A stretch of DNA of 64,000 bases, taken from Lachnospiraceae bacterium. Its GTDB lineage: Bacteria; Bacillota; Clostridia; Lachnospirales; Lachnospiraceae. Made by a program: the position numbers and the translations under genes. The stretch covers positions 1 to 64,000 of the forward strand of contig JAFRWN010000140.1 in assembly GCA_017437965.1 (NCBI GenBank), in the 5' to 3' direction. Shown here one piece after another: positions 21,448-24,765 of the stretch. Every line of letters begins with the position of its first letter. Position 1 is the first letter of the stretch. The notes under the pieces were generated by a model, which saw only the letters and a list, made by a program, of their open reading frames with translations, ran no database searches and was not told the origin of the DNA.

Positions 21448-23361
21448 ATGCAAAACACAAGAAAAGTTAGAATCATAAAAACACTCGTCTCATGTTTATT
21501 GATTCTAACAATGGTAGTTAGTATGCAAGGATTTGAGATTGCATACGCTGAAGAAAAAAGCGCAAAAGAAGAATATTCCTTTATGCAAGACGATAATAAG
21601 AATAAGCAAATATCAAAAGTTGAACTAGGCAATAAAAATTATCTTAATAACTTAGATAATAAAGATGAAACTTACGAGGAGTATTTGCCTTATGATAAAG
21701 AAATTATTCAAGCATATGATAATTTTACCGATTCATTGACAAAAAAGAACAAAACAGTGTACATCTGTCTAGAGGATTTTGCTGAATATTATAAAACCGG
21801 AAATGTCAACAAATGTTTCGAGATAAACAGCGAGATAGAAAAAAGCGTTGTTGATACTGAAAAAAGAGAAAAATTTGAAGTTCAAAATGAAAAGGAAATC
21901 GAGAGCATAAAATCTTCTAGTGGTTCCGACAAATATTACTATGATATAGGGAATGACCCCAGTCAGAAACCTGTATACAGTAAGTATAGTATATTGCAGG
22001 TTGCCAAAAAAGGTGATATAATTCTTGACAAAGAAGGCTCTTGGGGATTAACAGGACATGCAGCCATTGTCGAAGGGATATTTAAAAGTCCTAAGCATGG
22101 TTGTTACTATGTAAAACTAATTGAAGCAGTAAAGCCAGGTGGTGTTTGTCACGGATTGTTAGATGATGTAAGAGCTGACGAACGAGATTCGGTACTTTAT
22201 AAAGTATTTGTTGCCTCCGAAGAGCAAAAAAGAAAGGCTGTTTTATTCTGTTATCACGAAATAGGTGCCAAGTGGGGAGGAGACTTATCACATAATTATC
22301 AAGCTGGCCAGCACTGGTGGTTATGTTCTCAACTTGTTTGGGCAGGATATAAAAATCAAGGAATAGATATTGAGTGCAATTCTAGTATAACACCAGGCGC
22401 TGCTCCATATGACATTACTGAAAGAAGCGAAAAAACAACAAAGGTAGAATTACAAAGGGACTATCATCCGATTAAAGATGGTACTTATTATATAACTAAT
22501 TGTAAAAGCAATTTGAGACTTGATGTTAATGGAAACATTGCTGATAGCACTCAGATACAGCAGTATAATGTTGGAAATTATGCAGATCAAAAATGGATAT
22601 TTACATATAACTCTGAAGGAAGGTATTACACAATAAAATCTGCCGCTTCTAACAACAATTATTATCTTGACGTTGCATCTCCCAGTAGCGGACTGCATGC
22701 AAAAGTAAAACTTTGGCATACCAATAGTAATCTTGAAGAAAAATGGTATATTTATAAATCAGGTAAAGATGGAAATAAGTATTGTTTTATCAATTGCTAT
22801 AATTATATGTGTATGGATATATCAGGCGGTTCTACCAATAATGGAGCAGATGTACAAATATATAGGTACACTGGATCTGAAGATCAAAAATGGATGATCA
22901 GTTTATGTGGAACAAAAGTAATTCCCGATGGAAAATATTATATTACAAACAGTAAAAGTGGATTAAGATTGGGCGTTGAAGGAGGTGTGCCAGGAAAAAG
23001 TGTCCAGATTAAACAATATAACAGTACAAGCCAAAACAATCAGAAATGGTATATTGAATGGAATGAGGCATGGACATGTTATTATATTGTGAATAGCGAT
23101 CTTAGCAATGGTGGCTATTATTTAGATGTTGCATCCCCATCAAGTGGAGCACATGCCAAGGTAAAATTATGGAATTCAAAAACCAGACCTGAAGAAAGAG
23201 GGGTTATTGTTTCAACAGGAAATGGGACATATAAATTTATTAATGGATATGATGGCCTATGCATGGATATTCAAGGTGGATCTACATCAAACGGAGCAGA
23301 TGTTCAAGTATATCCTTACGAAGGTTCCGCTGATCAAAAATGGAAATTGCAAAAAGTATAA
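21448..23361 (+). CDS. Secreted YiiX-like cysteine peptidase with two ricin-type lectin domains
   Basis: 637 aa. The signal peptide ends near IAYAEE (about 30). After a charged region comes a permuted NlpC/P60 (YiiX/YebB-like) domain at about 165-320: GDIILDK, then GHAAIVEG with the His and WWLCSQLVWAGY with the Cys. Two ricin B-type beta-trefoils follow (about 340-480 and 490-637), shown by repeated QxW-type motifs: DQKWIF, EEKWYIY, DQKWMI, NQKWYI, DQKWKL. Such a protein would bind glycans and cut a peptide or amide bond outside the cell, for example in peptidoglycan or host/neighbour surfaces (inference). The gene is visibly more AT-rich than the metabolic genes. Confidence 0.82.
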   Translation: MQNTRKVRIIKTLVSCLLILTMVVSMQGFEIAYAEEKSAKEEYSFMQDDNKNKQISKVELGNKNYLNNLDNKDETYEEYLPYDKEIIQAYDNFTDSLTKKNKTVYICLEDFAEYYKTGNVNKCFEINSEIEKSVVDTEKREKFEVQNEKEIESIKSSSGSDKYYYDIGNDPSQKPVYSKYSILQVAKKGDIILDKEGSWGLTGHAAIVEGIFKSPKHGCYYVKLIEAVKPGGVCHGLLDDVRADERDSVLYKVFVASEEQKRKAVLFCYHEIGAKWGGDLSHNYQAGQHWWLCSQLVWAGYKNQGIDIECNSSITPGAAPYDITERSEKTTKVELQRDYHPIKDGTYYITNCKSNLRLDVNGNIADSTQIQQYNVGNYADQKWIFTYNSEGRYYTIKSAASNNNYYLDVASPSSGLHAKVKLWHTNSNLEEKWYIYKSGKDGNKYCFINCYNYMCMDISGGSTNNGADVQIYRYTGSEDQKWMISLCGTKVIPDGKYYITNSKSGLRLGVEGGVPGKSVQIKQYNSTSQNNQKWYIEWNEAWTCYYIVNSDLSNGGYYLDVASPSSGAHAKVKLWNSKTRPEERGVIVSTGNGTYKFINGYDGLCMDIQGGSTSNGADVQVYPYEGSADQKWKLQKV

Positions 23362-23373
23362 TGGAGCAAAAAT

Positions 23374-24021
23374 ATGTCTTTAAAAGAAAAATTAACATAT
23401 TATATCAGATCGGATGCATTAAAACCCTTAAAATATATTTGTACCGCAATATACATATTATGGATACTGTGTTTTGCGGTTGATTTAAAATATGGCTTTT
23501 TCAGTATACACATACCTTGGTTTTATATTACAATGACCTATGGTATTGGTATTGCCATTATTGCATATGCTGTTTTCATATGGTTATTCTTTAAAGATAA
23601 GAATTGTGAAGAAAGAAAAAGGCTCAGAAGAAATGTTATCACCGCTATTGTGATAAGTTTTGTTTTGAATCTGGGAATAGTAATTATTAGAATTCCTTAT
23701 GACAAAAGTGTTTTTATCTTGTTTGTTAATTATTTGTTTCCAGCTGTCATAACAATTTATTTATTGCCTATGTACATAATGCTATGGAATGAAATATGCA
23801 GTATAGCAAAGAAAAAAACTTATGGTCTAAAGACCATATCATCAATATTTTATTCAATTGGATTTATTTTGATAATAGCGGAATATGTATTTTTTCTTTA
23901 TGCAATCTTTACACCGACAAGTAGCGCTTTTGTTGTGACAAAAACAGGAATACTAATTTACAATCTTATTCCTATAGTTTTTTTTATTCCAGCTACTCCT
24001 ATAAAACTATTTATGAAATAG
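23374..24021 (+). CDS. Six-helix integral membrane protein
   Basis: 215 aa, with about six hydrophobic helices and no known motif. It resembles the 219-aa protein at 24945 (matching YIxWxxxxxxDLKYxxxS near the first helix and similar loop order), so the two are probably paralogues. It follows the peptidase/lectin gene by 12 nt, so both are likely cotranscribed; a role in immunity to or export of that protein is possible but unproven. Confidence 0.65.
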   Translation: MSLKEKLTYYIRSDALKPLKYICTAIYILWILCFAVDLKYGFFSIHIPWFYITMTYGIGIAIIAYAVFIWLFFKDKNCEERKRLRRNVITAIVISFVLNLGIVIIRIPYDKSVFILFVNYLFPAVITIYLLPMYIMLWNEICSIAKKKTYGLKTISSIFYSIGFILIIAEYVFFLYAIFTPTSSAFVVTKTGILIYNLIPIVFFIPATPIKLFMK

Positions 24022-24062
24022 TAGTATAATTGTCATATGAGGAGGAATTTTCAATGTTTTTC

Positions 24063-24091
24063 TTGACATCACATATTGTGTCCTATATAAT
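24063..24091 (+). promoter_or_regulatory. Consensus promoter of a structured RNA
   Basis: TTGACA (24063-24068), a 17-nt spacer and TATAAT (24086-24091). A ribosome site (GAGGAGG) and a 13-codon ORF (MFFLTSHIVSYII, 24054-24095) overlap the promoter. Confidence 0.75.
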
Positions 24092-24097
24092 ATAAAC

Positions 24098-24175
24098 AAG
24101 TAATCGGTTTAACCGATTTGGGCTGGTTGCAAAACCCAGGTTCATCTTTGGCGGGGAAGTTCCCCGCCTTTTATT
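24098..24175 (+). ncRNA. Small structured RNA upstream of a DUF3800 gene
   Basis: An RNA of about 75 nt between a consensus promoter and an intrinsic terminator. Stems seen: ATCGGT/ACCGAT, CTGG/CCAG, and GGCGGGGAA/TTCCCCGCC with a T-rich end. Structured RNAs of several classes (DUF3800-I and following) have been reported near DUF3800 genes, so this may be one of them. There is no convincing open frame. Confidence 0.55.
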
Positions 24176-24177
24176 TT
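24150..24177 (+). terminator. Terminator of the DUF3800-linked RNA
   Basis: GGCGGGGA and TCCCCGCC with a 2-nt loop, followed by TTTTATTTT. Confidence 0.8.
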
Positions 24178-24199
24178 GAATCTTCGAGGTTATTTGTTC

Positions 24200-24765
24200 G
24201 TGAAAGAATTAAGTGTATTCATAGATGAAAGCGGGGATTTTGGAGAATATTGTCCTCATTCCCCTTATTACATTATCACCATGGTCTTTCATGATCAAAG
24301 TAATGATATTCGGGAAGCGCTAACTAAGCTTAATTCCGAATCATCATTTCTTGGATTAAATGATCTATGTATACATACCGGTCCCATAATCCGCAGAGAA
24401 GAGATATATGTAAATATGTCCATACAGGAAAGACGAAGAATCTTCAACAAAATGATTGCTTTCATCAGACAGATTGACATTCAATATATGACGATGTAAA
24501 GATATATTACGACAATGGTCAAGTGGAAGTTAGCAAAATATTATCCTCTGTTTTTAATTCCCTGCTTTCCAATCCTATTTTCAAGAAAGTAATGCCTAAA
24601 GATTATCGTCTGTTTCAAGTTGCCGACCTTCTATGTACTATGAAACTGACTCAATTAAAAATTCAAAATAACTTATATTCCAGTTCTGAAAAAGCCTTCT
24701 TTGGAAATTCAAGGGACTTAAAGAAAAACTATCTGAAACCCTTAGCGGTTAAAGAACTCTTATAA
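24200..24765 (+). pseudogene. DUF3800 protein gene with internal deletion and frameshift
   Basis: The first part (GTG at 24200, GAGG 10 nt upstream) gives VKELSVFIDESGDFG, the typical DUF3800 opening, and stops after IDIQYMTM at 24499. The second part continues in another frame with DDVKIYYDNGQVEVSKILSSVFN... to a TAA at 24763-24765, matching the family's C-terminal half (DYRLFQVADLLCTMKLTQLK). The joined length is short for the family (usually about 220-250 aa) and the central segment is missing, so a deletion broke the gene near 24490. DUF3800 proteins are often near mobile or defence genes; the function of the family is unsettled. Confidence 0.7.

Follow-up and report, generated by a model that had tools for sequence, protein, structure and literature searches.

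The locus lies in a contig of a Lachnospiraceae bacterium (JAFRWN010000140.1), of which positions 1 to 64,000 were analysed as a single stretch, the window. On its plus strand a predicted short structured RNA, with a promoter and an intrinsic terminator of its own, precedes a DUF3800 gene that survives only in two parts (Table 1). A sequence-only reading of this DNA had described a consensus promoter, an RNA of ~75 nt with three stems and a terminator, all intact, followed ~25 nt downstream by a DUF3800 gene without its middle and its frame. This description holds: the promoter matches the consensus throughout, the predicted transcript is 78 nt long and has three stems, and the gene, which has lost ~35 residues, begins 24 nt past the RNA end (by eye). 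Transcription is predicted to start at ~24098.

Table 1. Features of the DUF3800-XI RNA and the broken gene in the window
Feature	Position	Strand	Basis
sigma-70 promoter, TTGACA-17 nt-TATAAT	24063..24091	+	12/12 consensus matches
Predicted transcript (~78 nt), DUF3800-XI RNA plus an extra 5' hairpin	24098..24175	+	fold; ends inferred from promoter and terminator
H1, 5' hairpin (7 bp, 3-nt loop), outside the Rfam model	24102..24118	+	fold prediction
DUF3800-XI core hairpin with 2-nt bulge and GCAA loop	24119..24144	+	RF02975 match, covariation
Intrinsic terminator: hairpin (24150-24168) plus T tract	24150..24177	+	partly inside the Rfam model
Possible ribosome-binding site, CGAGG	24185..24189	+	inferred from sequence
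DUF3800 gene, N part (begins with GTG, encodes residues 1-98 of 225, then continues out of frame up to a stop)	24200..24499	+	
DUF3800 gene, C part (residues 133-224, another frame)	24484..24765	+	

The RNA is a DUF3800-XI RNA with its stems intact and its promoter and terminator in place. A scan with published DUF3800 RNA covariance models, which the sequence-only reading had proposed as a check, returned a full-length match to RF02975 at 24119-24165(+) (56.9 bits, the cut-off being 37.8; E = 6.1e-10 for the window of 64 kb), which is more than chance would give. This motif was reportedly first described by Weinberg et al. in 2017, and both the RNA and its pairing with DUF3800 are already known. 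The locus resembles the RF02975 family in this match and in its position upstream of a DUF3800 gene, but differs in that the gene is broken and in that H1 and the full terminator extend beyond the Rfam model. There is one RF02975 match at the locus, and no tandem repeats were seen by eye in the RNA. The abiF motif (RF03085) had no match at its gathering score, and a search of 24000-24300 that admitted E values as high as 1 did not bring one up either. The predicted transcript folds as exactly the three stems listed in Table 1 (minimum free energy −31.1 kcal/mol, z −3.62; none of 200 shuffles reached this), and its upper stem carries a two-sided change from C-G to U-A relative to the consensus.

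The gene at 24200 begins VKELSVFIDESGDFG, which is the start of a DUF3800 protein. Its N part scores 21.3 bits against the Pfam DUF3800 profile (PF12686; cut-off 21), and the C part alone has no Pfam match; against a profile HMM of 23 intact relatives, residues 1-98 and 133-224 score 155 and 139 bits, respectively. Because these fragments lie in different frames, about 35 middle residues have been lost together with the frame, and the putative nuclease of this genome is, judged by its reading frames, dead through an out-of-frame internal deletion. The same genome has three RF02975 RNAs in all. One of the other two (contig C90) has a good promoter and is followed by a gene fragment only (residues 120-196), and the other (contig C107) is without a gene. 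Pfam and alignment searches of this genome found no intact DUF3800-XI gene elsewhere in the assembly, which is 94.6% complete, so that an intact copy could be missing. Another genome of the same genus (G301) has the RNA plus an intact gene. A further one (G299) aligns with the window from 24839 onward and lacks the module, but it does not offer a clean empty site, as the other side is unrelated sequence.

The structure of the RNA is conserved among its relatives. In an alignment of 96 distinct RNAs, fitted to the RF02975 model so that the counts lean towards that model, 94.6% of cells are paired and 13 of 18 pairs show two-sided changes. The covariation score of 0.257 compares with 0.112 for shuffled alignments (0 of 500 as high) and with at most 0.110 when pairing partners are slid by one to three columns. 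All eight pairs of the terminator helix have changed on both sides across relatives, and the U-G wobble next to the bulge is the same in all 96 rows. Each related locus has one strong plus-strand RNA match, and one of them (L125) has a second in reverse; this DUF3800-XI-like RNA (L125:5701-5757(-), 35.5 bits) lies just after an intact module.

Hairpins like H1 adjoin the core at 54 of 80 loci from named genomes at a set score (null mean 7.6), and promoters with at least 10 of 12 consensus matches occur at 52 of the 80 (null mean 1.8), the null in both cases being a first-order resampling and not an exact shuffle. Among relatives from the same family, H1 is present in 19 of 24 RNAs next to an intact gene, 11 of 17 next to a broken gene and 10 of 22 without a gene. 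The sequence of its arms varies between loci while their complementarity is kept. By eye, among the listed loci, the distance from the end of the −10 box to the core is mostly 22-33 nt at loci with H1 and 8-13 nt at those lacking it, which places the predicted start of transcription immediately upstream of H1 or of the core. RF02975 covers neither H1 nor the 3' arm of the terminator hairpin, and a longer model might detect further members; the RNAs of two loci (L098 and L099) are absent from the RF02975 results for the family genomes.

We examined the pairing of RNA and gene across 299 genomes belonging to the same GTDB family, with strict filters in the RF02975 search under which weak RNAs are missed (one, at L221, was seen only in a later search). 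RF02975 occurs 63 times, in 44 of the genomes. The gene downstream was classed by hand from matches to the HMM of 23 intact proteins within 1.5 kb: 24 RNAs precede an intact gene (one of these, in G039, sits on an overlapping contig), 17 a broken gene (including L012, which keeps only the first few codons) and 22 no clear match within that distance (only 492 nt being available at L053). Searching in the other direction, from the protein, we recovered 26 intact DUF3800 loci, every one with the RNA immediately upstream and one split over two overlapping contigs; two of these RNAs were first found by eye and then scored 55.4 and 45.1 bits. Seventeen gene fragments were also recovered, one of which (G108) is cut by a contig end. 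The RNA is kept at 14 of the 16 that could be scored, and the two without it are in G100 and G121. At the first of these (L100, G100:C45 about 1718) an unrelated terminator-like hairpin stands, by eye, in place of the RNA upstream of an N-terminal DUF3800 fragment.

In named genomes, the best 80 of 336 relatives all have the RNA, and 74 have an uninterrupted frame; six of the 80 loci are also in the family set (100% identical pairs). Fourteen of the 80, chosen for the spread of their labels, were scanned with Rfam, and all 14 have RF02975 at its gathering score. The sequence-only reading had also proposed a check of intact homologous loci, and its refuting condition, no match to any DUF3800 model and no conserved stems upstream of intact DUF3800 genes, does not hold: the RNA is present at all 26 intact family loci and all 80 named-genome loci, and its stems show compensatory changes. 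In the named-genome set the gene match begins 7-71 nt after the end of the RNA model, which leaves too little room for a usual separate promoter. Relatives on viral contigs have the RNA in 14 of 15 cases, one of them weakly (L196, 19.4 bits), and one (L199) has none. In the sets searched an intact gene implies the RNA, and the pairing is obligate. A lesion model based on length alone predicts about two intact genes with damaged RNA in the family set, and none was seen; as only about two are expected, this zero is weak evidence by itself. RNA presence at intact versus fragment loci gives p = 0.14 in Fisher's test.

Median RNA scores are similar next to broken and intact genes (68.7 versus 69.8 bits, p = 0.83) and lower where the gene is absent (57.1 versus 69.8 bits, p = 0.0008), on a scoring model (R1) that was trained on RNAs adjoining intact genes and therefore favours the intact class. 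Good promoters are found at 15 of 24 loci with an intact gene, at 8 of 17 where it is broken and at 6 of 22 where there is none. The RNA outlasts the protein, yet it is not kept for ever, and RNAs without a gene decay. Given the lower scores and fewer good promoters in the absence of a gene, survival here seems to reflect slower loss, to which the small size of the RNA, as a target roughly nine times smaller, contributes. The sequence-only reading had suggested that survival of the RNA would fit an RNA antitoxin retained longer than its toxin, and this interpretation as a whole is partly supported: the asymmetry between RNA and gene is as it predicts, but long-term retention is not supported, given the lower scores and rarer good promoters of RNAs without a gene.

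Gene loss with retention of the RNA can also be seen in a vertical comparison, in which two loci share surroundings that are 91-94% identical; one (L109) is intact and the other (L170) has lost about residues 17-69 of DUF3800 and kept its RNA. The isolate Eubacterium oxidoreducens DSM 3217 has one intact module and one RNA that precedes just residues 207-224, and a gene remnant in an isolate indicates that gene loss is not just an artefact of metagenome assembly. A 4.5-kb stretch of a family genome (G103; L010, at G103:C9, and L042/L142) is 100% identical to this isolate.

Long-term selection on orphan RNAs found no support in the sister species of G131, G009 and G223. Two of these three orphan genera are represented by one genome each, the third has the RNA in 2 of 16 genomes, and those two loci have just a 66-nt stretch at the RNA in common and not their flanks. 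The RNAs of two related orphans (L027 and L224) differ at 8 of 57 positions, which by eye is more than the neighbouring coding region differs. Some orphan RNAs score very high (L007, 78.8 bits). In genomes with an intact module plus an orphan RNA, the orphan is often of a different subtype (by eye), which argues against a general anti-addiction role; as subtypes differ in several genomes, the idea of orphan RNAs as a general shield against a co-resident toxin was rejected.

The RNA of the window itself may be a plain relic that persists only as a small target and is now functionless, a reading that we consider moderately probable and that is compatible with any mechanism of the intact module. 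It agrees with the decay of orphan RNAs, with the result that no intact DUF3800-XI gene was found in the same genome (with the caveat of its incompleteness) and with the sizes of the two targets (~78 nt of RNA versus 678 nt of gene). It sits less easily with a promoter that matches the consensus at all 12 positions with three intact stems and with the two-sided change in the upper stem, though this change is perhaps older than the loss of the gene.

Among loci that are 77-89% identical within unrelated flanks, the shared DNA begins near −160, counted from the gene start, and ends around the stop codon; the unit thus measures roughly 840 bp. Distances between RNAs correlate with distances between proteins (Mantel r 0.63, 0 of 999 permutations; calculated on the 85 of 92 loci whose frame is uninterrupted), as would be expected if the two move jointly, which is not proof of contact. 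A search of 398 genomes of the phylum with R1 gave four matches, a lower bound under strict filters, of which two were known and two are weak (29.1 and 24.7 bits). Labels in the scan of named genomes include Treponema, Fibrobacter, Flexilinea, Saccharibacteria and Parasutterella, some of which may be wrong where the genomes were assembled from metagenomes. A phage or plasmid origin was considered and rejected. Relatives occur at 15 IMG/VR loci, in 1 of 50,697 phage records (partial) and in 1 of 72,556 plasmid records (distant), so this is not mainly a phage or plasmid gene. Nor did a defence-island context emerge from the neighbours of 80 loci, among which (139 of 146 nearest neighbours scanned, with no control set) there is no consistent partner; the neighbours include a small number of AbiEi, restriction or Fic proteins and many housekeeping proteins.

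We modelled the intact protein with AlphaFold2 from a 23-row alignment (pLDDT 91.8, pTM 0.89), and the model is predicted to adopt an RNase HII-like fold. Its best PDB matches in Foldseek are RNase HII structures (2dff, E 5.1e-5), and the top VIA-align match is 1eke (Z 8.5, rmsd 4.0, 164 residues aligned), although Z values of 7-8 can arise from a common arrangement and the value obtained, barely above these, is close to what unrelated models reach. Argonaute PIWI domains come close behind RNase HII at the top of these structure searches; ToxN does not appear in the ranking, which proves nothing about a ToxN-type fold. All 85 intact proteins carry the invariant residues D9, E10, D142 and D180, which may form an active site. 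The likeness to RNase HII (1eke, 2dff) would comprise the overall fold of the model, an N-terminal D-E on the first strand and further invariant Asp, but the motif here is DESGDFG, whereas that of RNase HII is DEAGRG, and sequence identity is 10-14%. Of three intact proteins compared with PADLOC, two are not covered by any model and the third has a weak partial match (E = 0.0062). An RNase H fold with a catalytic rearrangement has been reported for DUF3800 (PMC10910872). Among the essential genes that a transposon screen reports for a Legionella strain is a DUF3800 gene, of unchecked subfamily (PMC7811196), which would be odd for a toxin.

Two known kinds of system have a comparable layout. 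In AbiF/RCd22 of Clostridioides difficile, a SigA promoter is followed by an ncRNA of ~100 nt, a terminator, a ribosome-binding site and a toxin made by read-through, which the RNA inhibits in trans by binding (PMC12373285); the same paper traces the AbiF motif to the 2017 survey named above. The plan of promoter, ncRNA, terminator, ribosome-binding site and gene is shared with the present loci, but RNA and protein are different: AbiF is an Abi_2 protein with structural links to Cas13, and RCd22 carries two motifs (PMC12373285). Type III toxin-antitoxin loci (ToxIN, CptIN, TenpIN) consist of an RNA gene, a terminator and a toxin gene under one promoter (PMC5086642). The terminator between RNA and protein gene and the single promoter, with presumed read-through, are found here as well. 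The RNA, however, lacks tandem repeats, so this is not a type III member as defined, and the protein model resembles RNase HII. The available portions of the DUF3800 literature give no function for the RNAs, and titles and opening lines of abstracts on RNase H with type III systems and structured RNA hold nothing on this subject.

Considering this layout and the dependence of the gene on the RNA, our best guess for the intact module is an RNA-restrained nuclease resembling type III toxin-antitoxin systems or AbiF/RCd22, for which we see about an even chance. RNAs without a gene are common and an intact gene without the RNA was never seen, which is the pattern that an RNA antitoxin predicts. 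One promoter would produce the short structured RNA, with its 5' hairpin, core hairpin and terminator hairpin, and occasional read-through of the terminator would yield the 225-residue DUF3800 protein with its RNase HII-like fold. In the manner of type III antitoxins and RCd22, RNA in excess might bind the nuclease and keep it inactive, and a freed nuclease might harm the cell or an invader. Losing the protein first would then be safe and losing the RNA first would not, which could account for the survival of the RNA in the window; left alone, it would drift. A bolder version, in which these loci form a new class of nuclease restrained by RNA (a type III-like toxin-antitoxin or an abortive infection module), combine an RNase HII-like protein with a single-copy three-hairpin RNA, spread among gut bacteria as cassettes of 840 bp and leave RNA relics after nuclease loss, is tentative and has somewhat less than an even chance. 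The one-sided pattern, the RNase HII-like model and the AbiF/RCd22-like layout turn an unexplained association into a simple test and, if the reading is right, RNA-restrained toxins would be extended to another nuclease fold.

Alternatively, the RNA might be a guide or obligate cofactor of the nuclease (similar to omega-RNA), or the whole might be a small mobile element with persisting deleted copies. The RNase H-like protein would then act together with the RNA and would not be held in check by it. The predicted RNase H-like fold, the obligate pairing, the compact unit with its unrelated flanks and the internal deletions in several copies would all suit this reading, as would reports that some Cas12a2 and type VI-F loci include DUF3800 as an accessory (PMC10910872, PMC12669027). 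We nevertheless regard it as unlikely, because no variable guide segment was seen, the unit ends without terminal repeats (by eye), and copies within one genome are divergent, with no burst of identical ones. An RNA acting solely as a cis leader that sets read-through into the gene, with no partner in trans, would fit the terminator directly before the gene, the little room for another promoter and the action of RCd22 in cis as well (PMC12373285), but it is improbable: nothing would favour the survival of such a leader on its own, and yet there are 22 RNAs without a gene, some with very high scores (L007 among them), and the invariant U-G wobble hints at recognition beyond a leader.

Several further observations concern other neighbours. 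At two loci (L027, G273:C43; L224, G699:C60) the DUF3800-XI RNA, with promoter and terminator, lies directly before a nucleotidyltransferase gene (NTP_transf_2; partial query). A second gene follows that resembles HEPN/HepT by eye and has an 85-nt gap in L027 relative to L224, and the unit is ~92% identical from the −35 box on while the upstream flanks are unrelated. That the RNA has been re-partnered with a nucleotidyltransferase/HEPN-like pair was rejected as a one-off, since just 2 of 29 loci (23 family relatives of the nucleotidyltransferase, 5 viral ones and L224) have a strong RNA, namely L225, which is the L027 locus, and L224. At L062 and L064, orphan RNAs face an opposite-strand ORF that resembles a nucleotidyltransferase by eye, and the one such ORF tested against Pfam (L002:807-1364) had no match. 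Elsewhere in the window, 21448-23361 encodes a 637-residue protein with a weak Peptidase_C92 (permuted papain-like) match and four ricin-type lectin stretches.
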